DNA from: a virus
Length of the DNA stretch: 43,639 bases
IMG/VR virus record: IMGVR_UViG_3300031951_015779
Coordinates: 1 to 43,639 of that record
Strand: one strand, 5' to 3'
The notes under the pieces are model-generated. The model saw only the letters and a program-made list of their open reading frames with translations. It had not been told where the DNA came from and did not search any database. The position numbers and the translations under genes are program-made. Of this stretch, positions 8,009 to 43,024 are shown one piece after another (position 1 is the stretch's first letter; each line of letters starts with the position of its first letter).

Positions 8009-9793
8009 ATGTCGTTAACAAAAGAACAAGCTTTATTAGAATATGCAAAATGTGTAAATGATACTCCTTACGCATTAAAAACATATCTACAAACATACGA
8101 CAATACACAATCCAAATACGTACCGTTAGAATTATTTAATGATCAAGTTACCCTTGTAAAAGATTACGACACATGTGAAGAAAATATTGCATTAAAGTAT
8201 CGTCAGGCGGGCGTGTCTACTGTGACTTCTGCGTGGGCATCAAAAAGGATGGTATTTGCTCGTAAAGAAAAACCTGAAAAAATCCTTATTATTGCCAACA
8301 AAATGGATACTGCGGTTGAAATGGCAAATAAAGTAAGATCCTTTGTAGAACAATGGCCTAAATGGTTAGGTGTCGGGTTTTCAAATGAAAAGAACTCACA
8401 AAGACATTTTAAATTAACTAATGGTTGTGAGGTTAAGGCGGTCGCAACATCAAAGGATGCCTTACGTGGTTATACACCAACAATCCTTATTTTTGATGAA
8501 GCTGCTTATATAAATGCCGATGAAGACTTTTGGTCTGCTTGTATGGCGTCCCTTTCAACAGGAGGTAAAGTAATTGTAATATCAACACCAAACGGATTTG
8601 ATCCAATCTACTATTCAATTTATAGTCAAGCGGTAAAAGGAATGAATGACTTTAAAATCACTGAAATGTATTGGTTTAGGGATCCTCGTTATTCAAAAGA
8701 TTTAAAACTAATTAAATGTGAAGATATTGTTCATTATATGTTAAATCGTGCAGAATATAATGATAATGAAATAACAGTTGATTATAGTGAAATTAAAGTA
8801 AGTGATAGGAATTTTCAAGAAATAAAAGATAAAATAGAAAATGGAGGTTACAAAGCTTATAGTTCATGGTTTGAGGCGATGGCCAAAAAATTAAAATTTG
8901 ACAAAAGAAAAATATCACAGGAACTTGAATGTAACTTTTTGGGTTCGGGGGATAACGTTATTCCACCTGAAACAATGAAATCAATAAAAGACAAACATAT
9001 AAAAGAACCTAAAGAAAAATTAATGGGAGGTGCGTTATGGGTTTGGAAAGATCCAGTACCAGGTCATAAATATATTATGGGTATGGATGTTTCTCGTGGT
9101 GATAGTGAGGATTTTACAACATTTACAATAATTGACTTTGATGAGAGAGAACAGGTTGTTGAGTACATTGGTAAAGTACCTCCTGATGTTGTTGCTGATA
9201 TTGCATATAAATGGGGAATATTGTATAGTACTTTTATTGTTACCGATATTACAGGAGGAATGGGTGTTGCAACATCAAGAAAATTACAAGAACTTGGGTA
9301 TAAAAATCTATATGTTGATGGGGTTAATCCGGCTGATAAATGGAAATGGGATCCAAAAGCTCAAGATAAAATACCCGGAATTAATTTTAATTCAAAAAGA
9401 GTTCAAATAATTGCTGCGTTTGAAGAATCATTAAGACATGGTTTTGGTGTTAGATCACAAAGATTATTTAATGAGTTAAATACGTTTGTTTATGTAAATG
9501 GAAGACCCGATCACCAAAAAGGACAACATGATGATTTAATTATGGCATTAGCTATGGCGATATATGTTGGGGAAAATTCTTTTGCTCAATTAGAAAAGGC
9601 TACCGAACATGCTAAGGCAATGTTGAATTCGTGGACCACAGAAAAAAAAGAATTTAGAGAATCTCACCAAAATTTTAATCCAGGTGTTCCTGTAAGTTAC
9701 ATGGATAGAATGAATATGGGTATGAGTAGAAGTACTTTAACTCAAAGTGATTACCAAAACTATTTATGGTTATTCGGAGGAAAAAGAGTTTAG
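8009..9793 (+). CDS. terL: Terminase large subunit (T4 gp17-like)
   Basis: 594 residues, close to the 610 of T4 gp17. It is the ATP-driven DNA-packaging motor and headful nuclease. In the ATPase domain the Walker A region reads KYRQAGVST (about residues 63-71), without the usual G-K-T/S lysine, as in other terminases with deviant P-loops where the upstream R or K is thought to serve. Walker B is TILIFDEAAY, followed by VISTPNG (coupling motif). The nuclease domain has GMDVSRGDSEDF and later GQHDDLIMALAMAI, the acidic metal-binding residues of the RNase H fold. It starts 3 bases after the preceding stop and precedes the portal gene, in T4 order. No intein or split is seen. Confidence 0.96.
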   Translation: MSLTKEQALLEYAKCVNDTPYALKTYLQTYDNTQSKYVPLELFNDQVTLVKDYDTCEENIALKYRQAGVSTVTSAWASKRMVFARKEKPEKILIIANKMDTAVEMANKVRSFVEQWPKWLGVGFSNEKNSQRHFKLTNGCEVKAVATSKDALRGYTPTILIFDEAAYINADEDFWSACMASLSTGGKVIVISTPNGFDPIYYSIYSQAVKGMNDFKITEMYWFRDPRYSKDLKLIKCEDIVHYMLNRAEYNDNEITVDYSEIKVSDRNFQEIKDKIENGGYKAYSSWFEAMAKKLKFDKRKISQELECNFLGSGDNVIPPETMKSIKDKHIKEPKEKLMGGALWVWKDPVPGHKYIMGMDVSRGDSEDFTTFTIIDFDEREQVVEYIGKVPPDVVADIAYKWGILYSTFIVTDITGGMGVATSRKLQELGYKNLYVDGVNPADKWKWDPKAQDKIPGINFNSKRVQIIAAFEESLRHGFGVRSQRLFNELNTFVYVNGRPDHQKGQHDDLIMALAMAIYVGENSFAQLEKATEHAKAMLNSWTTEKKEFRESHQNFNPGVPVSYMDRMNMGMSRSTLTQSDYQNYLWLFGGKRV

Positions 9794-9805
9794 TTTATAA
9801 ATTAT

Positions 9806-9813
9806 AGATTTAT
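9806..9813 (+). promoter_or_regulatory. Putative late-promoter word, variant AGATTTAT
   Basis: One base from ATATTTAT, in the 37-base gap between terminase and portal genes, 17 bases before the portal ATG. Confidence 0.35.
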
Positions 9814-9830
9814 TTTTAAAATAAAAAAAT

Positions 9831-11648
9831 ATGGCACAAGAAAAATATACAGTATGGCAAAGGTTAGGAAAAGTTTTCGGACCTAATGCCACCTTAGACC
9901 AACAAGCACCTGTATTTAAATTTGATAAAAAAGAATTATTAAAAACAACAGATAAAAAGGAGTTTGAAATTGAAAAGTTACAAGCACAACAATCGTTATA
10001 TATTGGACAACAATGGCAAAAGGTTGAGAGTAACTTATACCAACAAGCAGTCTATTACGAACCAACAAGAATGGCATCGTATTATGATTACGAATCAATG
10101 GAATATACTCCTGAAATTTCGGCGGCTTTAGACATTTATGCTGAAGAATCAACAACGCCAGATCAAGACGGATTAATATTAAAAGTTTATTCTGAATCAA
10201 AAAGAATAAAACAAGTTTTAACGGATCTTTTTACAAACAAATTGGATATAAATACTAACTTACCTATGTGGACAAGAAATACATGTAAGTTTGGTGATAA
10301 TTTTGTTTATCTAAAGTTAGATCCTGAAAAAGGGATAGTCGGGTGTCAACAATTACCAAATATTCAAATTGAAAGATTAGAAAAGGGTATGAGGTTTCAA
10401 CCTGACAAATACTCACAAGAAATGGAAAACGACGCTTTGAAGTTTGTTTGGAAAGAAAAAAACATGGAATTTAACACTTGGGAAGTTGGTCATTTTAGAA
10501 TTTTAGGTGACGATAGAAAACTTCCTTACGGTACATCTATGTTAGAAAAAGCAAGACGTATTTGGAAACAATTACTATTATGTGAAGACGCTATGTTAAT
10601 TTATCGTGTATCAAGAGCACCCGAAAGAAGAGTATTTAAAGTGTTTGTTGGTAACATGGACGATAAAGATGTTGACGCATATGTACAAAAAGTGGCAAAT
10701 AAATTCAAAAGAGATCAAATAGTAGATTCAAAAACAGGTAACGTTGATATGAGATACAATCAAATGGCGGTTGATCAAGACTTCTTTATACCTGTACGTG
10801 ACGCTTCGGCACCTGAACCCGTAACAACATTGGCGGGAGCATCAAACTTAGCTGAAATTGCAGATATTGAATATATTCAAAAGAAACTTGTTACTGCACT
10901 TAGAATACCAAAGGCGTATTTAGGGTTTGAAGAGGCTGTCGGGGACGGTAAAAATTTATCGTTGTTAGACATAAGATTTGCTAGAACAATTAACAGAATC
11001 CAAAAATCAATGATTGCCGAATTGAATAAAATAGCAATTATTCATTTATTTTTATTAGGGTTTGAAGACGAACTAACAAACTTTACTTTAAGTTTAAATA
11101 ACCCTTCAAAACAAGGAGAACTATTATCTTTAGAAATTTGGAAAGAAAAAATTACACTATATAAAGACGCGACCGCTGAGATTGCAAAATCATTAGCACC
11201 TGTTTCTGCTTCTTGGGCTAAAAAACACATATTAGGATTTTCTGATGAAGAAATTAGATTGGACATCCAACAACAAAGAGTTGAACGTGCGGTCTATGCT
11301 GAATTAGAAAAAACGGCTGAAGTTATCACTAAAACAGGTTTATTTGATAATATTGATAAATTATACGGTAAAAAAGAAGGTGAAGCGGCTGGCGCAGCTG
11401 GAGGTGATGCCGCGGCAGGTGGAGCACCACCGGCAGGAGGAGACATGGGTGGAGGAGCACCTCCGCCACCACCACCATCAGGCGGTGCGGAAGGAGGAGG
11501 CGTCACTCCCGAAAGATTTGTGAGAAATGACTTAGATTTAATTTTGGAAGAGACGTTATTTAACGAATCAAATAATTTAGATTTATCAAAAGGTAGAAAT
11601 TCTTTGGTGGAAATTGATCAAAAATTAAAAAATTTGATTGATAAGTAA
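9831..11648 (+). CDS. gp20: Portal protein (T4 gp20-like)
   Basis: 605 residues (T4 gp20 is 524). Portal proteins form the dodecameric ring at the packaging vertex. Recognisable blocks are YYDYESMEYTPEISAALDIY near residues 82-101, the PYGTSMLEKARRIWKQL segment, YRVSRAPERRVFKVFVGN (a hallmark of T4-type portals), and LAEIADIEYIQKKLVTALR followed by IPKAYLGFEE. A proline- and glycine-rich insert of about 45 residues near the C-terminus (GGAPPAGGDMGGGAPPPPPP) is absent from T4 and accounts for much of the extra length. It is composition-biased like the repeats at 5970. It lies directly after the terminase gene, the expected position. Confidence 0.95.
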   Translation: MAQEKYTVWQRLGKVFGPNATLDQQAPVFKFDKKELLKTTDKKEFEIEKLQAQQSLYIGQQWQKVESNLYQQAVYYEPTRMASYYDYESMEYTPEISAALDIYAEESTTPDQDGLILKVYSESKRIKQVLTDLFTNKLDINTNLPMWTRNTCKFGDNFVYLKLDPEKGIVGCQQLPNIQIERLEKGMRFQPDKYSQEMENDALKFVWKEKNMEFNTWEVGHFRILGDDRKLPYGTSMLEKARRIWKQLLLCEDAMLIYRVSRAPERRVFKVFVGNMDDKDVDAYVQKVANKFKRDQIVDSKTGNVDMRYNQMAVDQDFFIPVRDASAPEPVTTLAGASNLAEIADIEYIQKKLVTALRIPKAYLGFEEAVGDGKNLSLLDIRFARTINRIQKSMIAELNKIAIIHLFLLGFEDELTNFTLSLNNPSKQGELLSLEIWKEKITLYKDATAEIAKSLAPVSASWAKKHILGFSDEEIRLDIQQQRVERAVYAELEKTAEVITKTGLFDNIDKLYGKKEGEAAGAAGGDAAAGGAPPAGGDMGGGAPPPPPPSGGAEGGGVTPERFVRNDLDLILEETLFNESNNLDLSKGRNSLVEIDQKLKNLIDK

Positions 11649-11655
11649 TATTTAT
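11648..11655 (+). promoter_or_regulatory. Putative late-promoter word ATATTTAT
   Basis: Exact word overlapping the last base of the portal stop codon, 13 bases before the next ATG. Confidence 0.55.
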
Positions 11656-11668
11656 ATTAAAAAATAAT

Positions 11669-12400
11669 ATGAATACATTCGGTAACATTAAAACAAATAT
11701 AGAAAATACAGCTATAGGGATTGCAAAAAAACCAAGTTTTAAAAAATTCATAAAAGAATTTAATACTATAGTTTTAGAGAATAAAGATCTAGCAGAACTA
11801 TATTTTATATATGACGATCTATCATCTAACAAAGGTTTAGACATTGATTTAGCAAATGATTATATTAACGAATCAATTGAGTATTCTCAAATTTTAATTG
11901 AAAATCAAACTTCAGATATTAGAAGATTAAATAATTGGATTACTTCTTGGAACAAAACAAATAAAAATAACTATTCTGATATAGATAATGTAATTTACAC
12001 TAAAGGAATTAAAAATTTAGAATCAATATTAGAATCTAAAAAAAATATCAAAAACTTATTAATAAAAGAACCAAGCAGAAAAGAAATTTCAGAAAATTAT
12101 AATATGCCTATATCTACTATGGTAAAAATCGCTAATGAGTCTTTGAAAAAAGAAATTTCAACATTACCAATATCTGAACAAAAAGAATTAGAAAGTATCG
12201 TTTCTTTAAGTTATGATGATTTAGTTGTAGAAATGAAAAATCTTAAAAATGACGTGGTAAAAAAATTGAAGTCATCATTAAATGAATCAAAAGAAATTGA
12301 TTTGAAGGAATCAATAAATAAAACAATCAATAAAGTAATGGATTCTAAAGTTAGCCATTATGATTATTATAAACTAAAAAAACTAAGTTTGGGACTATGA
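11669..12400 (+). CDS. Helical head-region protein, function unknown
   Basis: 243 residues, rich in K, E, N and S and predicted almost wholly helical. There is no membrane segment and no known domain. Sites fitting the prohead-protease signature occur late in the protein (SLNES near residue 212, DLKES near residue 219). It sits between the portal and protease genes, where T4 places its small prohead core genes 67 and 68. A core or internal head protein processed on maturation is therefore plausible. It has its own late-promoter word, and its last 4 bases overlap the next gene (ATGA). Sequence alone does not identify it. Confidence 0.6.
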   Translation: MNTFGNIKTNIENTAIGIAKKPSFKKFIKEFNTIVLENKDLAELYFIYDDLSSNKGLDIDLANDYINESIEYSQILIENQTSDIRRLNNWITSWNKTNKNNYSDIDNVIYTKGIKNLESILESKKNIKNLLIKEPSRKEISENYNMPISTMVKIANESLKKEISTLPISEQKELESIVSLSYDDLVVEMKNLKNDVVKKLKSSLNESKEIDLKESINKTINKVMDSKVSHYDYYKLKKLSLGL

Positions 12401-16271: not shown

Positions 16272-18080
16272 ATGGGAGCATTATTAGAATCAGGTCTTGT
16301 TGGTAACATCGGTCTTAAGCACTTGAAAGTTATCAAAGAAGATACAATTAACAAATGGGATAGATTAGGATTCCTAGACGGTCTTAAAGGACACGTTAAA
16401 GAGAACATGGCACAATTATATGAAAACCAAGCATCTCACCTAATTAACGAAGCGGCATCTACTGACAGTTCAGGTTCATTTGAAACTGTTGTATTTCCTA
16501 TCGTTAGAAGAGTATTCTCTAAATTATTAGCAAATGATTTAGTATCTGTACAAGCAATGAACTTACCAATCGGTAAATTGTTCTACTTTGTACCTAAAAT
16601 TCAAGGTTATAACTCAGCTGATACCGCACCAGGAACAAACCACTTCCAACCAATCGGTGCACCAGGTTCAACTGCAACTGTCAATTCAGGTTATAATGAC
16701 GCTAACGCATACGCTAAAAATCTTTACGATTTATTTTATGAAGGTGCTGAGGCAGCATTAGATCCTCCAGGATTATTTGACTATTCTAAAGGTACCTGGA
16801 CTGCTGTTACTGCAACTACAGTGATACAAACTTGGTCAAATGGATCTTTGATTGACTCATTAGCACCAACAGGAGTTCAAAGAAAAGTTCTTCTTAAAAT
16901 GTGTGGTTTTTATGATAATGGTGTTGGTAAATTAATCGGACCCGATGGTTCGGAAGTTGACAGTGAGACTTTCTTGTCTGATTTAAAAATTATCAAATCA
17001 ACCGGTTTAGCAATTGCTGAAGATAGTGCTTGTTCTGTTGCCGATGCAACTCCATTGTTATTTAGAGTCGTTACTCAACAATACGGTAAAGGTATCGTTT
17101 CTCCTACATCTACACAAACACCAACAACATTCCCTAACGGAAATGGTGGGTCTTATGACAATATTTGTTCACAAGATGGTTGTATATATTTAGAAGTTGA
17201 TTTATCTTGTCCAGTATGTACTGGATGTGATGCAACATCTTTAGATGGATATACAGGTGCTACTATCACTTCAGGAGCGTCAGGTACTTCGTTTGTGGCA
17301 GTATTTAGAAGATACGAAGAACTTGAATTTGAAGATAAAATCGGTGAGGTTTCTTTTGACTTAGAATCAGTAACTGTTTCTGTAACTGAAAGAAAACTAA
17401 GAGCACAATGGTCACCTGAATTGGCACAAGATGTTTCAGCGTTCCATAACATTGATGCTGAGGCTGAATTAACGGCTTTATTGTCTGAGCAAGTGGCGGC
17501 AGAAATTGATAGAGAAATCTTGAGAGACCTTAGAAAAGGTGCGGCTTGGAACCTAAGATGGGATTACAACGGATGGAGAAGAATTCCTGGAAACATGACT
17601 TATACTCAAAAAGATTGGAATCAAACATTGATCACTGCAATTAACCAATTGTCTGCACAAATCCACAAATCTACATTGAGAGGTGGAGCTAACTGGATTG
17701 TTGTATCTTCTGAAGTTTCAGCTATCTTTGATGACCTTGAGTACTTCCACGTATCTAACGCATCTCCTGAGCAAGACCAATACAACATGGGTATTGAAAG
17801 AGTTGGTACATTAGCAGGTCGTTACCAAGTGTATAGAGACCCATACTTCCCGGCTAACCAAGTTCTTATCGGACACAAAGGTTCTTCTTTGTTAGATACA
17901 GGATACGTTTACGCTCCGTATGTACCTCTACAATTAACACCTACAATGTATAACCCATTCAACTTTACACCTATCAAAGGTATCATGACTAGATACGCTA
18001 AGAAAATGGTTAACAACCGTTTCTATGGTAGAATCACAGTTGATGGAGTTAGAACATTTGACTTACAAGAATTGAGATAA
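16272..18080 (+). CDS. gp23: Major capsid protein (T4 gp23-like)
   Basis: 602 residues (T4 gp23 is 521). The N-terminal segment ends HLINE60 then AASTD, matching the T4 pattern where gp21 removes the first 65 residues after an (I/L)-x-E. The following block FPIVRRVFSKLLANDLVSVQ is the gp23 hallmark. The second half keeps LRAQWSPELAQDVSAFHNID, the AEIDREILRDLR helix and the C-terminal YAPYVPLQLTPTMYNPFNFT to MVNNRFYGRI. An insertion at about residues 285-325 is cysteine-rich (CSQDGC, later CPVCTGC). Codon use is richer in C-ending codons than in its neighbours, as expected for very high expression. It has a late-promoter word and a strong terminator of its own. Confidence 0.96.
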   Translation: MGALLESGLVGNIGLKHLKVIKEDTINKWDRLGFLDGLKGHVKENMAQLYENQASHLINEAASTDSSGSFETVVFPIVRRVFSKLLANDLVSVQAMNLPIGKLFYFVPKIQGYNSADTAPGTNHFQPIGAPGSTATVNSGYNDANAYAKNLYDLFYEGAEAALDPPGLFDYSKGTWTAVTATTVIQTWSNGSLIDSLAPTGVQRKVLLKMCGFYDNGVGKLIGPDGSEVDSETFLSDLKIIKSTGLAIAEDSACSVADATPLLFRVVTQQYGKGIVSPTSTQTPTTFPNGNGGSYDNICSQDGCIYLEVDLSCPVCTGCDATSLDGYTGATITSGASGTSFVAVFRRYEELEFEDKIGEVSFDLESVTVSVTERKLRAQWSPELAQDVSAFHNIDAEAELTALLSEQVAAEIDREILRDLRKGAAWNLRWDYNGWRRIPGNMTYTQKDWNQTLITAINQLSAQIHKSTLRGGANWIVVSSEVSAIFDDLEYFHVSNASPEQDQYNMGIERVGTLAGRYQVYRDPYFPANQVLIGHKGSSLLDTGYVYAPYVPLQLTPTMYNPFNFTPIKGIMTRYAKKMVNNRFYGRITVDGVRTFDLQELR

Positions 18081-18103
18081 TCAATATCTTAACTGAATAA
18101 GAG

Positions 18104-18132
18104 AAAGGAGACAAGAAATTGTCTCCTTTTTT
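18104..18132 (+). terminator. Strong terminator after the capsid gene
   Basis: An 11-bp perfect stem (AAAGGAGACAA with TTGTCTCCTTT) is closed by a GAAA tetraloop and followed by a T-run. It is the strongest terminator in the window. Confidence 0.92.
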
Positions 18133-18191
18133 GTTTTTATAAAAATTAGTTTTTATTACGTATATGTGTACGTATTTTCACACATACAATA

Positions 18192-18232
18192 TTAGTACCC
18201 ATGTTGTAAATTGATTGTTTAGGGGGTACTAA
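18192..18232. promoter_or_regulatory. Inverted repeats upstream of the subtilase gene
   Basis: TTAGTACCC (18192-18200) and GGGTACTAA (18224-18232) form perfect 9-bp arms around a 23-base loop. A second inverted repeat, TATGTGT and ACACATA, lies at 18163-18186. Together they fill the 160 bases between the capsid terminator and the subtilase gene. They could be operators, a transcript structure or the edge of an acquired segment. No exact late word or TAnnTTTG box was found here. Confidence 0.45.
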
Positions 18233-18295
18233 AAACGGGTTTTTCTTTCTATATAAGAGTATCTATTGGTGTAAATAAAAACAAAACCAATAGAA

Positions 18296-19750
18296 ATGAA
18301 AAACTTAAAAACAACAATTACAACACTACTAATCAGTTTAATAACTATAGTATCTTTTGGACAAAAAAGTTCTGTATGGGCAACCGTAGAAAATGTAGAT
18401 CAATTAGAAAGAAACGCACAATTTATTTCAATACTTACAGATTTACATACTGATTTAACTTATTACAAAGCATTTCCATCTTCAAAACAAGAATCATTAC
18501 AAAATGTATTTGAATTTACATGTGATGGTTGTGATGTGACTGATTTATACGTAGCATTAAGTAGAGTAAATGGTTTAAAAGGTGTGGAGTACGGACCAAC
18601 ATACGAAACATTAGAAGTACCAAATGACTATAGTTTAGTTTCAACAACAAATTGGGCTTTAGATTTAATTGGGGCTCAAACAGCATGGAATTTTACACAC
18701 GGTGATGCATCAATTAAAGTAGCGGTATCTGATCAAAACTTTTACACAAACCACGAAGAATTAACAGGTAAAATAAATTATTATGACAACACAAACACAG
18801 CAACACGTACACATGGTACGGCCGTGGCAACAATAGTTGCAGGAAACACAAACAACTCAATCGGTTTATCATCAATTGGTTACAACACAACACTTAGTCT
18901 TTATAGAATGAATTATAACGATATGTTAATTGCTTCTTATGCGGGTGCTAAAGTTATTAACTTATCTTGGGCATCAGGATGTAACTATAATACATACGCT
19001 CAAATGGTAATAGATGAGGTTTATAATAACGGAACATTTATTGTTGCATCGGCAGGAAACGGAACAACATGCGGAGGACCAAACTCATTAGTGTATCCGG
19101 CTTCTTACAATCACGTATTTGCGGTAACAAGTGTTGGTTCACAAGATAATATTGAAAAAACTATCGGTAATCCAAACACAAGACATCAAACAAATTCAAG
19201 TGTAGATATTTGTGCACCTGGTCACAACGTACCTTTAACCGCAGCACCGGGATGGTACTTAAATTCTTCAGGTACGTCATTTGCCGCTCCTTACGTGACG
19301 GGAACAGTTGCACTTATGTTAGCGGTTAAACCTGACTTAACAAATCAAGAAATAGATTCAATTTTAAGATTAACCGCAACTAATATAGACATTTTAAATC
19401 CAAATTATGTAGGAAAAATCGGATCAGGAAGATTAAACTCCGGATTGGCAGTACAAACAGTATGGAACATGATTCAAGTAGTAGAAGACGGAAATAACGG
19501 TCACGGAAACGACGCTGACGGTGTAGATGATTCTAACCCTGGTCAAGGTGGTGGAAATAACGGAAATCAAGGAGGAAACGGTAATCATTTTGGGTGGGAC
19601 AAAAACGATAAAATCACTTTAGGTGAAGACTTATCAAATATGTTAGTAATTGATATCAACGGTAGAACAACAAATTTAGATAACACACTTCCTGGATATT
19701 ACTTTGTAGTAAATAACGGAATTATAACCAAAAAAATATACAAAAACTAA
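18296..19750 (+). CDS. Secreted subtilisin-like protease (S8) with T9SS sorting domain
   Basis: 484 residues. The signal peptide is about residues 1-22 (TTITTLLISLITIVSFGQ). The S8 catalytic residues are D in VAVSDQNF (the usual D-S/T-G is altered to D-Q-N), H in RTHGTAVATIVAG, the oxyanion N in VASAGNGT, and S in SSGTSFAAPYVTGTVALML. After about residue 400 comes a Gly/Asn linker, then a final segment MLVIDINGRTT to LPGYYFVVNNGIITKKIYKN in the pattern of type A T9SS C-terminal domains (short strand, NGR turn, GxYxV, KKI near the end). The protein should therefore leave the host cell through the host T9SS. A bacterial-type secreted protease beside the capsid gene is unusual and suggests acquisition from a host. 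Confidence 0.9.
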   Translation: MKNLKTTITTLLISLITIVSFGQKSSVWATVENVDQLERNAQFISILTDLHTDLTYYKAFPSSKQESLQNVFEFTCDGCDVTDLYVALSRVNGLKGVEYGPTYETLEVPNDYSLVSTTNWALDLIGAQTAWNFTHGDASIKVAVSDQNFYTNHEELTGKINYYDNTNTATRTHGTAVATIVAGNTNNSIGLSSIGYNTTLSLYRMNYNDMLIASYAGAKVINLSWASGCNYNTYAQMVIDEVYNNGTFIVASAGNGTTCGGPNSLVYPASYNHVFAVTSVGSQDNIEKTIGNPNTRHQTNSSVDICAPGHNVPLTAAPGWYLNSSGTSFAAPYVTGTVALMLAVKPDLTNQEIDSILRLTATNIDILNPNYVGKIGSGRLNSGLAVQTVWNMIQVVEDGNNGHGNDADGVDDSNPGQGGGNNGNQGGNGNHFGWDKNDKITLGEDLSNMLVIDINGRTTNLDNTLPGYYFVVNNGIITKKIYKN

Positions 19751-19751
19751 T

Positions 19752-19850
19752 ATGAAAAAAAACTTAGATAATATAAAATTATTCTCATTAATCTTTATAA
19801 CAATGTTTTCAATAACAGCAGTATTAAAAATAATCATCATAGGCGTGTAG
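19752..19850 (+). CDS. Small hydrophobic peptide, 32 residues
   Basis: An ATG 1 base after the subtilase stop opens a 32-residue frame: a basic start (KKNLDNIKL), then one hydrophobic stretch FSLIFITMFSITAVLKIIII and a stop. It could be a single-pass membrane peptide translated with the subtilase. There is no homology evidence, and small frames like this arise by chance in AT-rich DNA. Confidence 0.35.
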   Translation: MKKNLDNIKLFSLIFITMFSITAVLKIIIIGV

Positions 19851-19910
19851 ATATAAAAGATTTCCCCAAAAATATTCATTTACACATCAAAATGGTTGAT
19901 CAATCAGGAG

Positions 19911-19947
19911 TTCCCCTATATTTATTTATAGGGGAAATCTTATTTTT
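19911..19947. terminator. Hairpin TTCCCCTATA/TATAGGGGAA with T-rich tail
   Basis: Perfect 10-bp arms around a 6-base loop, followed by ATCTTATTTTT. It probably ends the subtilase transcript. The late-promoter word overlaps its left arm and loop, so terminator and promoter are superimposed. Confidence 0.65.
19918..19925 (+). promoter_or_regulatory. Putative late-promoter word ATATTTAT within a hairpin
   Basis: Exact word 35 bases before the ATG at 19961, the same spacing as before the capsid-region genes, but here within the apex of the hairpin. Confidence 0.5.
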
Positions 19948-19960
19948 AAAAAAAAATTAT

Positions 19961-22543
19961 ATGAAAAAACTTTTTTTATTTTTGACAATTTTTATGTCAT
20001 TCTTTTCATCTGCTCAAGTTTCTAGTCTTTATTCATTTTCTGAAACCACAGGAACTTATACTGAAATTGTTGGTGGTACACAATTAGTTACAACAACTGG
20101 GGGTGCAACAACATATGACACAGATGGTAGTTATTTTACAATACCAGGCGGTTCACAGTTTCAATTTAATAACACAACAATAACATCTGTGAATATGACG
20201 GCAGATGGTGCTTTGTTCTTAAATCCGGGAACAACAACAACAGGAAACGGTATAACAGGTCCTATATCTTCTACCGGAACGGCAGCAGGTGTAATTGCCG
20301 GTTTAGGTATGGATTTAAGAAGTACGGCAATCGCATCACAAGTTTATGAAAGAAGATGGCAAGATGTTGGTACAGAAGTGGTTTTTCAATGGAAAAATGC
20401 TGCAAGATATTTACAGAGTAGTTCAGAAAGATTTTCTTTTCAAATTAGAATTAATAAATCAAATGGACAAATAAGAATTGTTTATGGTAATATGACAACC
20501 ATAACAACGAGTACAACTTATCAACCAATGGTTGGTTTAAGAGGTACTGCAAACACAGACTATAATAATAGAAGATTGACAAACTCAGTACCCGACGCAA
20601 CACCTAACTGGGGAGCACCAAATGGAACAACTGCCGGTACATCAAACGCTCATACAGTAAGATTTACATCAAACGGATCTTGTGTCCCTACTAGTGGATT
20701 AACTTTTATTTGGACCGTACAGTCTTGTATTGGTCCTACATTACCTACAATATCGTATACATCGTCAGCAAATGCTAACCTTTCTTGGACAGCACCTGGT
20801 TCTCCACCATCTAATGGTTATAATTGGGAACTAAGGTCATCAGGTGCGGGAGGAAGTGGTGCTACGGGACTAGCAGCTTCAGGTTCTGTTGCAACAGGAA
20901 CAACATCTGCAACCGCAAACGGATTGACCCAACAAACTTCATATACTTTATATGTACAAAGTAATTGTGGGGGATTAACTAGTTCTTGGGTTGCATCAAC
21001 CGCAAGTTTGAGCCCACCAACAAATAATGATTGTTCTAACGCAACATCTGTTACAGTAAACGGGGCATCAATATGTACGTCCACAACTACTGCTAGTAGT
21101 GTGGGTGCAACACAATCCTCAGTGGCATGTGCGGGTACAGGGGCTGACGATGATGTTTGGTTTTCTTTTGTTGCTACATATACATCACATGTAATAACAG
21201 TTACACCAGGATCAATGTCAGATGTCGTATTCCAAGTTTTTAGTGGTTCTTGTTTAGGGTTATCATCATTATCATGTATAGATGCCACTTCAGGTGCCAG
21301 TGTTGAAACAACAACGGTTAATAGTCTTACTATAGGTAACACTTATTACATCAGAGTTCACAGTTACGCATCCACAAATGGTACTAGAGGAACTTTTACT
21401 GTTTGTGTGACTACACCTTGTACAACACCAACAACCGCCGGAACACTATCATCCAACAAAACATCCACAGTCGTAAATGATGCGGTAACATTCTCAATTG
21501 CGGGTAATGGCGGTAGTGTCACATTATTTGAATGGTCATTTGATAATTTTGGTACAGTTGCCGGCTCCACAACAAATCCAACTATGCCATATACGTTACA
21601 ATTGAATGTTACACAAACTTTAATGTATTTTAGAGCAACTTCCGTGAATGGGTCATGTCCTGCTGGAGTAACATCACCAATTTCAGTTAGTTTAGAATTA
21701 GCACCACCATACACTTATGGTGTAAGTGACGGGGATTATATTTCAAACGTAACATTTAGTGATATAAATAATACGTCTACCAATGATGGTGACGCATATT
21801 CAGATTTTCAATCAATTTTTGGTAATGTAGATGCAGGTGGGACTTATACAATATCAGTATCAGGCACACTCACATTCAGTTCATACCCTGGATATGCAGC
21901 ATGGATTGATTGGAATCAAGACGGTGTGTTCCAAACTTCAGAAAACGTTTTATTATCAGCTCCTGGAGCAACAGGCACCGTATCAGTTACAGTACCAAAT
22001 GATGTCACGGTTGGTACAGTCAAAATGAGAGTATTGTCTGTTTGGAATGCAACACCAACAAACGACGCTTATTATTCAACAGGATATGGTTATGGTGAAA
22101 TAGAAGAATATAGTATTATTATGTCAGTACCTTTACCTGTTGAATTAACCCAATTTGAAGCAACCCCTTATCCACAATGGAATGTTGTAAAATGGACTAC
22201 TGATTCTGAACAAAACTCAAGTCACTTTGATTTAGAAATGAGCACTGATGGTGAAGAGTGGAGAAAAATAACAACCAAACAGGCGGCAGGTAATTCTACA
22301 GAAGAAATAAAATATTCTTACATCGATTATAACTTAAATTCTGTAACATACTACAGATTACAACAATTTGATATTGATGGTCAATTTAAAACTTATGGGC
22401 CAATTTTAGTAACAAAAACAATTACTGAGAAAAAAATTGTCAAATACATAAATTTGATGGGTCAAGAAATTAATCCTGAAAATACAACAGGTGTTGTAAT
22501 TGAAATTTATGACGATGGAACTATGAGAAAAATGATTAGGTAA
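19961..22543 (+). CDS. Large secreted multi-domain protein with GEVED and T9SS sorting domains
   Basis: 860 residues from the ATG at 19961. The open frame begins at 19892, but the internal start gives a clean signal peptide (KKLFLFLTIFMSFFSSAQ). In order: an N-terminal beta domain (to about 250), a fibronectin-III-like domain (about 260-350), a PPC-like domain starting NNDCSNATSV, an Ig-like domain, a GEVED domain (YAAWIDWNQDGVFQ and GYGEIEEYSI), a stretch LPVELTQFEATPYPQWNVVK common before sorting signals in Bacteroidota, and a terminal YINLMGQEIN to DGTMRKMIR in the type A T9SS pattern. The plan is that of a Bacteroidota surface adhesin. On a phage it might alter the host surface, bind receptors or polysaccharide, or aid exclusion. 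The specific ligand is unknown. Confidence 0.88.
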   Translation: MKKLFLFLTIFMSFFSSAQVSSLYSFSETTGTYTEIVGGTQLVTTTGGATTYDTDGSYFTIPGGSQFQFNNTTITSVNMTADGALFLNPGTTTTGNGITGPISSTGTAAGVIAGLGMDLRSTAIASQVYERRWQDVGTEVVFQWKNAARYLQSSSERFSFQIRINKSNGQIRIVYGNMTTITTSTTYQPMVGLRGTANTDYNNRRLTNSVPDATPNWGAPNGTTAGTSNAHTVRFTSNGSCVPTSGLTFIWTVQSCIGPTLPTISYTSSANANLSWTAPGSPPSNGYNWELRSSGAGGSGATGLAASGSVATGTTSATANGLTQQTSYTLYVQSNCGGLTSSWVASTASLSPPTNNDCSNATSVTVNGASICTSTTTASSVGATQSSVACAGTGADDDVWFSFVATYTSHVITVTPGSMSDVVFQVFSGSCLGLSSLSCIDATSGASVETTTVNSLTIGNTYYIRVHSYASTNGTRGTFTVCVTTPCTTPTTAGTLSSNKTSTVVNDAVTFSIAGNGGSVTLFEWSFDNFGTVAGSTTNPTMPYTLQLNVTQTLMYFRATSVNGSCPAGVTSPISVSLELAPPYTYGVSDGDYISNVTFSDINNTSTNDGDAYSDFQSIFGNVDAGGTYTISVSGTLTFSSYPGYAAWIDWNQDGVFQTSENVLLSAPGATGTVSVTVPNDVTVGTVKMRVLSVWNATPTNDAYYSTGYGYGEIEEYSIIMSVPLPVELTQFEATPYPQWNVVKWTTDSEQNSSHFDLEMSTDGEEWRKITTKQAAGNSTEEIKYSYIDYNLNSVTYYRLQQFDIDGQFKTYGPILVTKTITEKKIVKYINLMGQEINPENTTGVVIEIYDDGTMRKMIR

Positions 22544-22998
22544 ATGAATAGATGGGATATGTTTGAAAGGTTGTTCGCATCCGTTTTAGCGGCTGTACAA
22601 CCTTTCATCATTTATTTCCTATACGGTGACAACCACGCGATATCTAGATGTTGGGACACGACACTCCAACCACTTTTTATAATCACAAACGCACTTGTTA
22701 GTTTTTTTTTTTTAAAATACCAAAATGGAGAGTACCTGCAACACTTCTTTTACTTTTAACTTCATTTTCAGTAACTGACCATTTTGTTTTACATAATATT
22801 TTTGCAATACTATTTTTTATTTTTTCTGCAGTGTCATTATGGGGTATTAAAAAATTCAGATATTATTTTTTTATATTTTTATTATCTGCTTTTTTTCTTT
22901 TTGATGGGTTATTTTGGGCAGAAACTTGGGGTATAATAACTTTAGTATTTTATCACACACATTTAACAATATACAGATATTTATTAGATAGAAGATAA
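22544..22998 (+). CDS. Multi-pass membrane protein, interrupted by a frameshift at T12
   Basis: The ATG follows the preceding TAA directly. Frame 1 (22544-22759) gives two hydrophobic segments and then diverges after a run of 12 T at 22702-22713. Shifting back one base in that run opens a second frame of about 95 codons, starting FKIPKWRVPATLLLLLTSF and ending YHTHLTIYRYLLDRR at 22998, three bases before the next gene. The joined protein would have about 151 residues and about five membrane helices. Either the run is miscounted, or the full product is made by slippage or -1 frameshifting, or the gene is broken. I do not recognise the family; the position suggests a partner of the exported proteins. 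Confidence 0.65.
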
Positions 22999-31739: not shown

Positions 31740-32483
31740 TTATTCACTAAACATTCTTTTTGTGGTTTCAATGTAAAGATTTTTATATTTTTTTAAATAA
31801 ATTCTAATTTCTTTAGTATTCATGTTTGTCATTTCTCTCAATGACAGTAAAACTATATTCTTATTAAATTTATTATTATCGTTACCAATAAAAATGTTTC
31901 CATAGTTTTCAAAAAGTTCTATTAGCGCATATCCTAATTTTGATTCGTTATCATTGAGATTACTTTCTAAAACATATTTTTTTAGATCTTGCTTAAATAC
32001 CTCAATTATTTTTTGAGCGTCAATACTTTCAAATTCCATATAGTAAACCATGTCAGGCCTATTTTCTAATGTAGATGATATATCTTCGTATGAAATTTTT
32101 CTATTAAAATCTTTTTGTTCCTTTTGTATTTGGCCCATTAAATAATTTTTACAAATTGTTCCAAAATAAGAATATGCTTTTTTATTTTTATCGGGTTTAA
32201 ATTTATCAACTTTAGTCATCAGAAAAGAATGTGTATCATTATGAACGTCTTCATAATTCATATCTTTTCTATATAGTTTATATCTCCTTATGATAGATTC
32301 AATCATCTTATCTAAGGGTTCTTTTAGGAAATTGTTATATATATCCTCTTTTTCTTCTTTAGAATTGGAGGTGATAAATAATTTCACCGCCTCTTCTTCA
32401 CGAGTATCAAAATAATTGTTAGTCTTTATTTTTTTACTCGTCTTATTCTTTAATTCGTTTTTTTCTTCATTTGATAAATCCAT
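31740..32483 (-). CDS. Late sigma factor, T4 gp55-like
   Basis: 247 residues (T4 gp55 is 185). The middle part has sigma-70 region 2 character: YEDVHNDTHSFLMTKVDKFK followed by KAYSYFGTICKNYLMGQIQK, with the aromatic/basic face used for -10 recognition and core binding. The C-terminal MTNMNTKEIRIYLKKYKNLY looks like a small helix-turn-helix in region-4 position, but shorter than a full region 4. T4 gp55 is a minimal sigma that lets host RNA polymerase read late promoters. The repeated ATATTTAT words before structural genes are the obvious candidate target. No such word precedes this gene, as expected for an earlier expression class. It overlaps its upstream neighbour by 1 base. Confidence 0.8.
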   Translation of the reverse strand: MDLSNEEKNELKNKTSKKIKTNNYFDTREEEAVKLFITSNSKEEKEDIYNNFLKEPLDKMIESIIRRYKLYRKDMNYEDVHNDTHSFLMTKVDKFKPDKNKKAYSYFGTICKNYLMGQIQKEQKDFNRKISYEDISSTLENRPDMVYYMEFESIDAQKIIEVFKQDLKKYVLESNLNDNESKLGYALIELFENYGNIFIGNDNNKFNKNIVLLSLREMTNMNTKEIRIYLKKYKNLYIETTKRMFSE

Positions 32484-33295
32484 TAAACAATTTGAGGCTC
32501 ATATTTTATTTCTCGGTCTGCGGTGAAAAAGTGTTCTTTTTTTGCTGCTTCTAACCAAAAAGTCACCTCATTGTCTGAAATTTTTTCTTCACCAAATTTA
32601 TAATTCCAAAATATAGAACCTTGTCTCAAATTAGTATGTTTGTAACCAATTCTAGGTATTGTCATTATTTTAACTGAATTATACGTCAACCTTAAAAAAT
32701 ATTCATAAACAAAGGTAAGTTTAAATGAAGGTTTAAATCCACCATTATTTTCAAATACTGATTTTTTAATTACCATACCACTTGATTGAAAATTTTGATA
32801 CCCTAAAAGTACGTCATTAGATAATATCCCAATCTCACTGTTTAAACTAACAGCAAAAGATGCTTCGTTTGTAAATCCGGCAAATACTCCTTTATCGTCT
32901 GTGTCCACAACCAATGGTAAAAATGCATCCATATCCTCATATGCCTTAGAATACTCATCAACATTTTTAAACCATATAGAAGAATATTCGTCATCAAATT
33001 CTAAAATAGAAACCCATTTACTTTTTGCGTTTTTAACACCCAAATTAACCTGTGTTGCAAAATCTTTAGATCCCGTATTTTCAACCATATTAACAGTTAA
33101 CCCACTAAAATCAAAAGAATTTAATTTTAATTTCAAAGGTTCCTCACTTGTGTGTACAATTACCAATTCATTAATTTGAGTTGACTGATTGTTTATTGAT
33201 TTAATCGCTCTACCCAAAAGTTCATCAAAATCTACGTGCTTCGCTGAGTCCAATGGTAATACCACCGAAACATCAAAAATGTTTTTTTCTTCCAT
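32483..33295 (-). CDS. Family 2 glycosyltransferase
   Basis: 270 residues. GT-A layout: VSVVLPLDSAKHVDFDELLG at the N-terminus, AIKSINNQSTQINELVIVHT, and the nucleotide-sugar/metal site ILEFDDEYSS (about residue 100). The acceptor half contains FEYFLRL-like YEYFLRLTYNSVKIMTIPRI. These enzymes transfer a sugar from a nucleotide donor to a glycan or protein. The following short C-terminal region is not membrane-associated. It lies directly upstream of the sigma gene and downstream of a GT4 enzyme, as part of a surface-sugar cluster. The substrate cannot be told. Confidence 0.82.
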   Translation of the reverse strand: MEEKNIFDVSVVLPLDSAKHVDFDELLGRAIKSINNQSTQINELVIVHTSEEPLKLKLNSFDFSGLTVNMVENTGSKDFATQVNLGVKNAKSKWVSILEFDDEYSSIWFKNVDEYSKAYEDMDAFLPLVVDTDDKGVFAGFTNEASFAVSLNSEIGILSNDVLLGYQNFQSSGMVIKKSVFENNGGFKPSFKLTFVYEYFLRLTYNSVKIMTIPRIGYKHTNLRQGSIFWNYKFGEEKISDNEVTFWLEAAKKEHFFTADREIKYEPQIV

Positions 33296-33300
33296 AATTA

Positions 33301-34368
33301 TTAATTTTGTGTTGTTGTTTCTTTTATTTTTTCTAATTGTTCCTCTAAAGACAATTTTCTTTTTTCAATATAACCATCAAATGTTGATAAAACATCAGAC
33401 TCATAAGTACTATTAACTGAATAAATGTCAGATGTTGTTTTCATGTTATCGTATAACGATTCAGAAATGTTATCCTCTAACCAATTTTGTGTGAAGTTTG
33501 CAATAATATCTACAATTTCATTGAACTCATAAGTCCAAACGCCATTGTTTTCGTCCATCCATTCAGGTTTTAATGAAGGTACTTTTCCAATAACCGGAGT
33601 ACCACACGCCATAGATTCTAAAGGAAATGTACCAAATCCTGACTCCAAATCAACCCAAACAGAAACATAAGATTCTTTTAAAAATTTTGCAAAATCTTCT
33701 AATTTTATCCCTCTCATATCTCTGAAAGTGATCCACCTATATTGTGGGTATTTAAGATAAAATGTTTTAATAATTTTTGCAGTTTCTCTTGGTTCTCTTG
33801 TGTGTATTGATATGATTGGTTTTGATGGTTTTTCTTTTTTTGAAAAAGAATCATCTATTTTAGGTGTTATAATATCAAAACTACAACCTCTCATTATATT
33901 TGACAAATATTTTTTTTGGTTTTCTGACGTTGTTATAACTTTTAAAAATCCATATTGGGCCCAAGAAACTCCAGGTGCTAATGTTTCTAACATGTGATCA
34001 TATGCCTGACAAAGGACAATTTTTCCACAAGGAAAATTTTTAAGTTGTTCCATTACGTGTCCATAAATTTCAGGGATAACAATAAAGTCTTCAGGTGAAA
34101 TTGCAAGATTTTGACCCTCAATAGACTGATGCGGGATTTCTTGATATCTTTCGTCTAACCATTCACCAACACCTTTATAATCATTTGACTCATGTATTAT
34201 AATACTATTATAACCATTATTTTTTAAAATAAGAGCAGTATCATAAATGTATTTTACAGACGCCTTAGGATTACCTTTAGTGTCCTGTACTAAAAAATAA
34301 ATTCTTACATTTTTATTTTTTAAATTTTCAACAGACCTTTCAATTTTTTCAATTTTTTCTAATTCCAT
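33301..34368 (-). CDS. Family 4-type glycosyltransferase (GT-B)
   Basis: 355 residues. The C-terminal half has the GT4 donor site pattern ESGFGTFPLESMACGTPVIG, the E-x7-E motif that binds the nucleotide sugar, preceded by SVWVDL. The N-terminal Rossmann half includes NVRIYFLVQDTKGNPKASVK and AYDHMLETLAPGVSWAQYGF. The likely reaction is a retaining sugar transfer, with donor unknown. It is followed in the same direction by the GT2 gene after 5 bases. A short coiled tail (RKLSLEEQLEKIKETTTQ) is unusual. Confidence 0.82.
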   Translation of the reverse strand: MELEKIEKIERSVENLKNKNVRIYFLVQDTKGNPKASVKYIYDTALILKNNGYNSIIIHESNDYKGVGEWLDERYQEIPHQSIEGQNLAISPEDFIVIPEIYGHVMEQLKNFPCGKIVLCQAYDHMLETLAPGVSWAQYGFLKVITTSENQKKYLSNIMRGCSFDIITPKIDDSFSKKEKPSKPIISIHTREPRETAKIIKTFYLKYPQYRWITFRDMRGIKLEDFAKFLKESYVSVWVDLESGFGTFPLESMACGTPVIGKVPSLKPEWMDENNGVWTYEFNEIVDIIANFTQNWLEDNISESLYDNMKTTSDIYSVNSTYESDVLSTFDGYIEKRKLSLEEQLEKIKETTTQN

Positions 34369-34371
34369 TTC

Positions 34372-34662
34372 TTAAAGTTTTTTTAGTATTTTGTTTATTA
34401 ATAGTGTATTGAAAGAAATTTTAAATGGGATTGTTAAATTTTTTGCCCCATGTATTCCTAAATCTTCATCTAATTCTTCACGTTCTGTAAGTATAACCTC
34501 AATTAAACTTTTAAATGTCTCAAATCTTGTGACACTGATTTGTTGTTCAGGATTCTCTGTTGACGCAGATGTTGACAAAGGTAAAATTGAACTTTCATAA
34601 CTTACTTGTTTTTCTAATTCATTTATGTCTAAATAATAGTTTTCCCCTAAAAATTCTAACAT
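34372..34662 (-). CDS. Small protein of unknown function
   Basis: 96 residues. The sequence LEFLGENYYLDINELEKQVS, then a Ser/Thr/Pro linker, then TRFETFKSLIEVILTEREEL and DLGIHGAKNLTIPFKISFNT, contains no motif I recognise. It overlaps the end of its upstream gene by 7 bases and is 3 bases from the GT4 gene, so it belongs to the operon. Its composition is ordinary and there is no signal peptide or membrane helix. Confidence 0.55.
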   Translation of the reverse strand: MLEFLGENYYLDINELEKQVSYESSILPLSTSASTENPEQQISVTRFETFKSLIEVILTEREELDEDLGIHGAKNLTIPFKISFNTLLINKILKKL

Positions 34663-35306
34663 GTTAATATTTGTTTTAAAGTTTCGTCAAATTCTTTCAA
34701 TGAGGTTATTTCATATTCGCAACTGACATTTTTATTATAGTTCGTATTATATTTAACTACGATTTTATCTTTTGGTTTTTCTAATATTAGTTGAGGATTA
34801 GACGTAAGTAAAACGTCAACTTCATTCCACATTGAATTTATTGTTACATTTGAGTAAAATTTTACTTTTTCAAGTTGACAACCGAACTTAGAAAGAAAAA
34901 ATAAAGAAGCGGGTTTTGATTTACCCATCTCATCGGAAACAATTAACAATTCATTTTCTTCTCTATATTTTAAATAAATTTCATTTAAGTCATTAAAGGT
35001 AAATGTTTCTGTAGAACCAGCATGACCAAAAATTTGCATAGCAAAATCTTCATACATAAATTCGTACAATTCGTTTTCATCATTAAATTTAAAATGTTCT
35101 ATTAAATTAAGAGTAGTGACCTCACTTAAAATTTCATATTCAAATTCTTCTGGTGAAACTAACTCTTCGGTGTTTCCAGACATGTCTAACTCAAATGTTT
35201 TACTGTCATCATTTTTTTCTTCAATCATATGTTTTTCATATAATTGAGTAAATTTACCTATAGTGTCTCTAAGCACTCCGTTAATTTCAATCCCTATTCT
35301 CTTCAT
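34656..35306 (-). CDS. HAD-fold protein lacking catalytic aspartates
   Basis: 216 residues. The start MKRIGIEINGVLRDT is HAD motif I (normally DxDGxxxD), but both key acids are changed, to E and N. Motif II Ser remains in LLIVSDEMG, the motif III Lys remains in KSKPASLFFLSKFG, and motif IV reads DVLLTSNPQLI where active enzymes have DD. The fold resembles the phage 5'(3')-nucleotidase-like HAD proteins, with an extended cap (FEYEILSEVTTLNLIEHFKF). Substitution of the nucleophile and the motif IV acids implies no phosphatase activity, so a structural, binding or regulatory role is more likely. The C-terminal 60 residues beyond motif IV are not part of the usual HAD core. Confidence 0.72.
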   Translation of the reverse strand: MKRIGIEINGVLRDTIGKFTQLYEKHMIEEKNDDSKTFELDMSGNTEELVSPEEFEYEILSEVTTLNLIEHFKFNDENELYEFMYEDFAMQIFGHAGSTETFTFNDLNEIYLKYREENELLIVSDEMGKSKPASLFFLSKFGCQLEKVKFYSNVTINSMWNEVDVLLTSNPQLILEKPKDKIVVKYNTNYNKNVSCEYEITSLKEFDETLKQILTC

Positions 35307-36018
35307 ACTTTTTTAATAATTTACTAATAAGTGGGTTTCTAACAACATCCCCATCACCAAATTCAAACACACCAATATCGGAAACATCATTAAACTTTTT
35401 AATTGCGTCATAAAGACCTGATTGTTTTTTGTCTCTATAACGGTCAGTCTGTTCAATATCTCCTGATATAAAGAATTTACTATTGAAACCGATTCTTGTC
35501 AATAGTAATTTCATTTGATTTGGGCTTGAGTTTTGTGCCTCTTCAAATATTAAAATTGTATTATCTATATTCATACCTCTCATATATGCTAATGCAAAAA
35601 CTTCAATTACTTCAGCATCTTTTAATCTTTCACGAGCATCTTTACCTATAATTTTATTTAATAGATAATAAGATGGAAAAATATAAGGGTCTAATTTTTC
35701 TTCTAAGTTACCAGGTAGGGAACCAAGTTTTTCTTCCGCTTCAACCGCCGGTCTAACAATAACTAACTTTTCATAAGAATTAGTTGGGTCCATTAATAAA
35801 TCAACGGCAGCTTTCATTGCGATATAAGATTTACCAACACCTGCCGGGCCAGAACAAATAGTAATTTGATTGTTTCTTAAAAGATTGTAATAATGTTCTT
35901 GACTTTCAGTAAGGAATTTGTTTTTAATTTTTTTCTTTATTACCGAATTAATAAAGTCTTTTTTAGAAAAAGGTTTGGATTCTTGATCTTCGGTTGGCGG
36001 ATGCTTTTTTCTTGTCAT
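35287..36018 (-). CDS. phoH: PhoH-like ATPase
   Basis: 243 residues, P-loop NTPase of the PhoH family. Walker A is ICSGPAGVGKSYIA (about residues 54-67), with the family block VIVRPAVEAEEKLGSLPGNL after it. Walker B is NTILIFEEAQNSSPNQMKLL, and sensor-like segments are FISGDIEQTD and GLYDAIKKF. PhoH is a frequent phage marker gene of uncertain role, associated with RNA metabolism; the link to phosphate is weak outside E. coli. It overlaps the HAD-like gene by 20 bases and lies 1 base from the GDP-fucose synthase gene. The N-terminal 25 residues are basic and variable. Confidence 0.9.
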   Translation of the reverse strand: MTRKKHPPTEDQESKPFSKKDFINSVIKKKIKNKFLTESQEHYYNLLRNNQITICSGPAGVGKSYIAMKAAVDLLMDPTNSYEKLVIVRPAVEAEEKLGSLPGNLEEKLDPYIFPSYYLLNKIIGKDARERLKDAEVIEVFALAYMRGMNIDNTILIFEEAQNSSPNQMKLLLTRIGFNSKFFISGDIEQTDRYRDKKQSGLYDAIKKFNDVSDIGVFEFGDGDVVRNPLISKLLKKYEENRD

Positions 36019-36019
36019 A

Positions 36020-36931: not shown

Positions 36932-36937
36932 ATTTTA

Positions 36938-37912: not shown

Positions 37913-38510
37913 ATTTTTTAAAAATTTTCATTTTAGTTAAATCAGGCCAATCTGTAACCACCCATTTTTTTGGTGTCTGATTAATGGCTGATTGTAATTT
38001 ATTTAAACCAAGTTGTGCAACTTCTGGAGTCATATAATAATGATAACCAATAGTATCAATATTTTGATCTCTCCAAGGAATGTTAGGTACTCTACCATCA
38101 TATGACATCTTCTTCAATTTAACATAATCGTTTTCATTGTCAAGTAAAATCATACCACCGCGACCAATCGAAAGGTGTTTTTGATATTGAAAACTTAAAC
38201 ACATAAAAGTGTTAGGAATGTAACTACCCTTCCTCCAAAGTACTGCAGCATCGATTATTCTTTTATTCCCATAGTTTAAAGTGTAATAATCTTCCCACTC
38301 TTCATCTCTCCAACTCCTTTCTATTCCTAACTTTTCAGCCAAAAATGGAACTGATAGGTATGTCCTTTTAGGGACATTAATTTTTTTTTCATTAGTATGT
38401 CTTAAACACAACTCAATACCATGAGTACAACTATCCACTGCAACCGCAAATGGAGAACCAAAAAACTCAGATATTTTTTTTTCAAATTCTAAAACAACTT
38501 CAAAACTCAT
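37905..38510 (-). CDS. Short DegT/DnrJ/EryC1-type aminotransferase (large domain only)
   Basis: 201 residues, against about 370-400 for the family. It starts at the opening helix (FEKKISEFFGSPFAVAVDSC, THGIELCL), runs through the PLP-lysine motif (MCLSFQYQKHLSIGRGGMIL), and ends soon after GYHYYMTPEVAQLGLNKLQS. The C-terminal small domain is missing and there is no downstream frame for it, so this is a compact form, not a visible frameshift. The neighbours fit GDP-perosamine synthesis: Gmd makes the 4-keto-sugar, this enzyme could aminate it, and the acetyltransferase at 38500 could acylate the amine. Whether the truncated form is active is open. Confidence 0.75.
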   Translation of the reverse strand: MSFEVVLEFEKKISEFFGSPFAVAVDSCTHGIELCLRHTNEKKINVPKRTYLSVPFLAEKLGIERSWRDEEWEDYYTLNYGNKRIIDAAVLWRKGSYIPNTFMCLSFQYQKHLSIGRGGMILLDNENDYVKLKKMSYDGRVPNIPWRDQNIDTIGYHYYMTPEVAQLGLNKLQSAINQTPKKWVVTDWPDLTKMKIFKKYE

Positions 38511-41529: not shown

Positions 41530-41530
41530 T

Positions 41531-42388: not shown

Positions 42389-42389
42389 T

Positions 42390-42998: not shown

Positions 42999-43024
42999 TT
43001 TTTAGTTTTTAATATTATTTAGTT

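Follow-up and report, generated by a model that had tools for sequence, protein, structure and literature searches.

Short type IX secretion-type signals on a subtilase and a GEVED-domain protein encoded behind the capsid gene of a putative Bacteroidota phage

Introduction

Why would a phage encode, directly 3' of its capsid gene, two proteins, one a protease and the other adhesin-like, that both bear the marks of secreted bacterial proteins? The question is raised by the IMG/VR virus record IMGVR_UViG_3300031951_015779, analysed here over its full 43,639 bases (the window), in which genes for terminase, portal, head protease and major head protein lie around two open reading frames (ORFs), 18296-19750 (484 aa) and 19892-22543, both 3' of the major head protein gene. 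A preliminary description, made from the letters alone, had taken the two products for a subtilase and a GEVED-domain protein, and had proposed that the phage sends both out of the cell through the type IX secretion system (T9SS) of its host. Both identities were confirmed by Pfam (S8, 5.5e-30; GEVED, 1.1e-15), as was the position behind the capsid gene (PHROG 138). Export through the host T9SS is the best-supported reading of the pair, based on signal peptides, C-terminal tails, orthologues with full type A domains and cellular proteins with the same short tails; we predict it with good confidence.

Domain organisation of the two proteins

The features of the two genes are as follows, with the ratio of nonsynonymous to synonymous substitution rates given as dN/dS, and C-terminal domains of T9SS cargo as CTDs.

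18296..19750, plus strand: secreted-type subtilase (S8), 484 aa; Pfam Peptidase_S8, E 5.5e-30
18296..18364, plus strand: Sec-type signal peptide of the subtilase, ending ..VSFGQ; from sequence, own rule
18365..18619, plus strand: presumed propeptide region, aa 24-108; conservation extends to cellular orthologues (aligned from aa 14 on); low-confidence alpha/beta model
18620..19480, plus strand: subtilase catalytic domain, about aa 109-395; Pfam match 139-364
19481..19615, plus strand: Gly/Asn/Asp-rich linker before the signal; from sequence; dN/dS 0.02-0.06
19616..19747, plus strand: subtilase C-terminal signal, short and of T9SS type (LVIDINGRTTNLDNTLPGYYFVVNNGIITKKIYKN); matches type A CTDs of hosts in profile comparison; motif B as NGR, D as GYY and E as KK
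19961..22543, plus strand: GEVED-domain adhesin-like protein, 860 aa from the likely start; Pfam domains and starts of relatives
19961..20017, plus strand: Sec-type signal peptide of the GEVED protein, MKKLFLFLTIFMSFFSSAQ; from sequence, own rule
20744..20974, plus strand: passenger domain resembling fibronectin type III; Pfam fn3 at 1.2e-4, narrowly missing the cut-off
21020..21388, plus strand: GBD_T9SS_assoc, galactose-binding-like domain (passenger); Pfam PF23759 1.3e-7
21893..22117, plus strand: GEVED domain (passenger); Pfam PF20009 1.1e-15
22133..22540, plus strand: delivery module of an fn3-like domain and a short T9SS-type signal; conserved in 18 phage sequences, also in cellular proteins
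22415..22540, plus strand: short T9SS-type C-terminal signal of the GEVED protein (KKIVKYINLMGQEINPENTTGVVIEIYDDGTMRKMIR), three strands; host-only profile E 2.3e-11, structure model

The predicted catalytic residues D146, H173 and S328 of the subtilase, together with N255, are invariant in nine phage orthologues, the Asp-His-Ser triad thus being kept, and a search of the PDB matched subtilisin-like proteases (E 1e-19). The phage subtilase is under purifying selection, with dN/dS of 0.08-0.14 for its catalytic part and 0.1-0.5 for its tail. The linker (NNGHGNDADGVDDSNPG.., window 19481-19615) shows strong conservation and contains a DxDG motif of calcium-binding type.

Signal peptides and short C-terminal signals

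Signal peptides were called throughout by a simple in-house rule, and by this rule both window proteins have an N-terminal Sec-type signal peptide, as had been described before, and so do all relatives with a complete N-terminus. At the other end, the tails of the two proteins comprise about 36-44 residues, which is half a type A domain. An AlphaFold model of the fn3-like domain and GEVED tail, computed from 18 sequences, reached a mean predicted local distance difference test (pLDDT) of 89 and placed the tail strands at 102-106, 121-126 and 131-135; with three strands and about 40 residues, this tail does not have the canonical type A fold, a seven-stranded sandwich of about 70-80 residues. 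A search of solved structures with the GEVED tail model gave no match at E <=0.001, only generic fn3/Ig-like folds being returned, while the viral structure library contained related phage proteins, one of them named 'Secretion system C-terminal sorting domain'.

The tails were then compared with host signals. A hidden Markov model (HMM) of the short signal was built only from hosts, namely 11 cellular Bacteroidota proteins, mostly of Flavobacteriales. Applied to 3072 ORFs of the fetched phage contigs, it recovered 25 distinct C-termini, including that of the window GEVED protein (E=2.3e-11); all matches lie <=4 residues from the C-terminus, and every match with a complete N-terminus has a signal peptide. 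The subtilase tail matched a profile of 36 host type A domains with a probability of 85% (E=6.4e-6), and none of 200 column shuffles scored as well. Profile comparison also linked the subtilase tail to the GEVED tail (E=8e-4; 0/200 shuffles as good), and short-tail profiles that include host members matched type A better than all 60 shuffles. G16 and G26 are invariant among the GEVED tails, nearly all of which have a basic residue near the end, and G23, G34 and K47 are invariant among the subtilase tails. The motif positions are kept in the phage tails, as in ..DINGR..GYYFV..KKIYKN and ..NLMGQ..GVVIEI..RKMIR. The type B signal CHU_C (PF13585) was not found in the window.

Cellular counterparts and descent of the subtilase

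In Bacteroidota genomes, what follows the same fn3-like domain is mostly a full type A CTD; a minority of cases, mainly in Flavobacteriales, have the short tail of the phage proteins instead. These cellular short-tail proteins have a signal peptide wherever the start is seen. Genomes of the Fluviicola/Crocinitomicaceae line that encode them hold at least 100 canonical CTDs each; one Fluviicola genome has seven short tails beside at least 150 canonical ones.

The nearest cellular relatives of the subtilase, found among 100 Fluviicola-family genomes, are up to 54% identical and can be aligned from the propeptide region on. A canonical type A CTD is present in 23 of 24 closed cellular relatives, and the two that were scanned for domains have S8, SprB repeats and Por_Secre_tail. 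The phage orthologue in L039 has this host-like order (S8, SprB, Por_Secre_tail, with PF18962 at 3.1e-11), while the short-tailed phage subtilases form one supported group (96/99) within the cellular radiation. The ancestor of the phage subtilase was, therefore, most likely a T9SS enzyme, the tail of which became shorter without disappearing, as judged from the cellular CTDs, the tree and the domain order of L039.

An export slot behind the capsid gene

The subtilase occurs on 20 viral contigs, nearly always directly 3' of the capsid gene, which forms the left border of the cargo region.

16272..18080, plus strand: gene of the major head (capsid) protein, with which the cargo slot begins on the left; PHROG 138 E 3.2e-66; TATTTAT 51 bases upstream

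We defined the slot as the region between the capsid gene and conserved downstream minus-strand genes and examined 44 distinct loci, all on metagenomic contig fragments. The slot is hypervariable, with a size of 1.7-9 kb. ORFs with a signal peptide make up 39 of 196 within the slot and 4 of 516 outside it, and T9SS tails number 27 within and none outside; a protein with both features is present in 20 of the 44 distinct slots. Even in records of 229 kb and 296 kb, the short tail is confined to the slot, and a signal-peptide scan of the two largest contigs found few exported proteins otherwise, with five consecutive ones in the slot of G001.

Comparison with individual relatives points to exchange of the passengers. 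Over the first 500 residues, the window GEVED protein is about 20% identical to its counterpart in L004, compared with 80% in the last 170 and 88% for the capsid protein; when it is compared with L021-L025, the passenger is mostly 80-93% identical and the last block 61-72%. These alignments indicate that passengers are swapped while the delivery tail stays, and that the slot is recombination-prone.

Other slots carry different proteins with signal peptides: a TonB-dependent receptor (L059:12900-15602; Plug 1e-10, CarbopepD_reg_2), an M54 metalloprotease (L097:14993-15595; 2.5e-9), and, in L110, a DNA/RNA non-specific endonuclease (9367-9960; 1.7e-24) and a second, divergent subtilase (9994-12318). 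Outside the slot, the type B signal CHU_C occurs in all three records above 200 kb and also in two smaller records (L252:6775-8985, L243:1876-2439, G006, G003 and G015; E to 3e-14), and a version of about 188 aa recurs in several records. Beside the type B cargo gene of L252, near the end of the 229-kb contig, lie two GAF/PAS/histidine-kinase-type ATPase proteins (9090-12277), which are either unusual for a phage or part of a host piece. As well, the huge phages L208, L209 and L210 (462-642 kb) have ORFs ending in T9SS-type tails, either short or full, and most of these ORFs also have a signal peptide. A search for a phage-encoded PorP/SprF shuttle gave no match, and its positive control was equally without a match.

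Expression signals of the two genes

In the window, 12 of the 16 plus-strand copies of TATTTAT precede a gene on that strand by <=90 bases (P about 3e-14), so that this heptamer is the probable late-promoter word of the phage. Plus-strand sites include window positions 16221, 19919 and 22978. On the coding strand, TATTTAT corresponds to a portion of the late word of T4, TATAAATA, in reverse complement; the T4 word itself was tried as the promoter word of the window and rejected, with 11 found vs 10.3 expected. The signals around the cargo genes are:

18101..18132, plus strand: intrinsic terminator 3' of the capsid gene; 14-pair stem and T run, same hairpin in several relatives
18141..18295, plus strand: intergenic region 5' of the subtilase; conserved in those relatives that carry the subtilase, no late word
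19911..19936, plus strand: hairpin that overlaps the late word (TATTTAT at 19919 and 19923), which lies 38-42 bases 5' of the GEVED start

That one of the two genes has a late-promoter word, as stated in the preliminary description, applies to the GEVED gene and not to the subtilase. Among relatives, the word stands upstream of 23 of 25 GEVED-type cargo genes (shuffled mean 3.9) and of none of nine subtilase genes. The subtilase sits 3' of the terminator with its own conserved upstream region, and the intergenic region 18141..18295 presumably confers separate control. The GEVED gene very probably starts at 19961 (MKKLFLFLTIFMSFFSSAQ), giving 860 aa, instead of at 19892, because the 69 bases between hold the hairpin and the late word and relatives begin at the equivalent methionine.

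Predicted export and its possible purposes

On the proposed route, the cargo, encoded by two genes of the late region, would cross the inner membrane by Sec and then fold in the periplasm, where the short C-terminal signals would be recognised, and the host T9SS, with the translocon SprA and the shuttle PorV, would move it across the outer membrane. It might then be released or anchored on the infected cell, as the tails and work on host proteins suggest (PMC11969387, PMC12618676). Since both proteins carry host-type secretion tags, the infected cell probably displays viral proteins on its surface.

Several results weigh against export by this route. The type A pattern assigned to both C-termini in the preliminary description stands as a T9SS-type tail in each, but as a short CTD: neither C-terminus matched the standard type A model PF18962 or NCBIfam (TIGR04183). 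Support came from better matched tests, the host-only short-signal model for the GEVED protein and the type A profile comparison for the subtilase. PF18962 misses the window tails because these signals are a short variant. The GEVED tail alone is only marginally like type A (9/200 shuffles as good). Moreover, the subtilase structure model from nine sequences is poor (mean pLDDT 39) and was set aside as too poor to use or to judge the tail strands. About half of the related capsid loci have a slot without a T9SS-tailed protein, and the function is, therefore, not essential to the group. The host T9SS is itself deduced from the tail and the kinship of the subtilase, the presumed hosts being aquatic Bacteroidota.

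As to purpose, our tentative preference is that the surface of the infected cell is remodelled to keep other phages, or progeny of the phage itself, from adsorbing; the protease would trim surface proteins, and adhesin-like proteins would cover the surface. Somewhat more tentatively still, a widespread line of large Bacteroidota phages may possess, 3' of the capsid gene, a modular island dedicated to export, whose interchangeable passengers (proteases, nuclease, adhesins, outer-membrane receptor), many on minimal T9SS tags, might act with type B cargo encoded elsewhere to re-coat or strip the infected cell and so control phage adsorption. The same export might instead serve to clear or bind matrix and debris, allowing progeny to escape aggregates and biofilm after lysis. 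The protease of the window, the secreted nuclease and second protease class of other slots, the late word before the GEVED gene, and the endoglucanase and GH39 with T9SS tails in Cryophage (PMC7468147) all suit such a role, but the adhesin-like proteins and the TonB-dependent receptor fit it less well and the subtilase is not under the late word, and we consider it doubtful. A nutritional purpose, in which extracellular hydrolases would supply the infected cell with amino acids and nucleotides in the manner of auxiliary metabolic genes, appears improbable: protease, nuclease and TonB-dependent receptor are of nutrient-acquisition kinds and the cellular subtilase relatives are ordinary T9SS-tailed enzymes, but the commonest passenger is adhesin-like and no enzyme, and the fast exchange of passengers beside the capsid gene resembles conflict more than metabolism.

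Two further explanations dispense with export. Ig-like and carbohydrate-binding domains are common on virions and the genes adjoin the capsid gene, so the proteins might be decoration or fibre components with leftover tails; this is very unlikely, given that every complete member retains its Sec signal peptide, that the tails persist at the extreme C-terminus while passengers turn over, and that the cellular relatives of the subtilase are secreted-type enzymes. A misassembled host piece would account for the resemblance of the subtilase and the adhesin to host cargo, but was rejected, its probability being close to nil. The chimera that the preliminary description had wished to exclude is ruled out because independent viral contigs carry the subtilase, nearly always at the same position, and no cellular gene in the 100 Fluviicola-family genomes exceeds 54% identity, compared with 66-99% for phage copies.

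Relation to known systems

Phage T9SS cargo as such is already known (PMC7468147, PMC6949934). Cryophage, a Bacteroidetes phage with a 76-kb circular genome, has three variable genes with T9SS type A sorting domains and endoglucanase, GH39 and PA14 passengers, for which superinfection exclusion or competition was proposed (Bellas et al. 2020, PMC7468147); the present line, with records of up to 296 kb, differs in its PHROG 138 capsid, in having only one slot, located 3' of the capsid gene, in its short tails and in its subtilase and GEVED passengers. A T9SS sorting domain was also noted in 2019 in ORFs near the head genes of crAss-like gut phages with BACON domains, without analysis of a slot or of short tails (PMC6949934).

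Short CTDs were described in Prevotella intermedia, where signal-peptide proteins with CTDs of 43-55 aa are cleaved and glycosylated like those with long ones; each short CTD forms one three-stranded sheet, the counterpart of long-CTD strands 3, 6 and 7, and keeps motifs B, D and E, and the species was reported as the only one observed with them (Ye et al. 2025, PMC11969387). The phage tails are similar in their length of about 40 residues (slightly below the P. intermedia range), C-terminal position, glycines of motifs B and D, basic motif E and, in the GEVED model, three strands. The P. intermedia proteins, however, are host proteins of another class, whereas the short tails found here occur in phages and a minority of Flavobacteriales. 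In P. gingivalis, secretion requires the C-terminal strand and also the glycine in the loop between strands 3 and 4 (PMC11285876). The related type A subtilases of the Fluviicola family (TIGR04183 / PF18962) likewise combine signal peptide, subtilase and C-terminal signal, but have the full domain of 70-80 residues and, where scanned, SprB repeats, whereas the window copy lacks both. Type B cargo (CHU_C, PF13585) of the larger relatives belongs to another tail class, which uses SprF-like shuttles (PMC12618676).

Within the open literature searched, several points appear to be new: a slot with a fixed place 3' of the capsid gene, short tails that are prevalent in phages and also occur in Flavobacteriales, the descent of the subtilase and the co-occurrence of type B cargo. 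What had been a single earlier report of phage T9SS cargo thus becomes a recurrent, positionally fixed system with clear parts, the purpose of which becomes testable. Short T9SS signals, until now from one species, are extended to Flavobacteriales and their phages and represent naturally minimised tags. Moreover, during infection a virus could be the source of surface proteins on aquatic Bacteroidota and of proteases secreted into water.

Other observations in the window

No near-identical annotated phages were found, and an Rfam scan of the window gave no match. Between the cargo genes lies a tiny ORF (window 19752-19850, 32 aa, MKKNLDNIKLFSLIFITMFSITAVLKIIIIGV) with the character of a membrane peptide, the end of which is also present in L004 and L012, and a hydrophobic ORF of 71 aa (window 22544-22759) begins right after the GEVED stop codon. 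On the minus strand, window 32483-43570 encodes nucleotide-sugar epimerases, a short DegT-type aminotransferase ORF, a hexapeptide transferase and several glycosyltransferases, which together form a glycan-making cluster.

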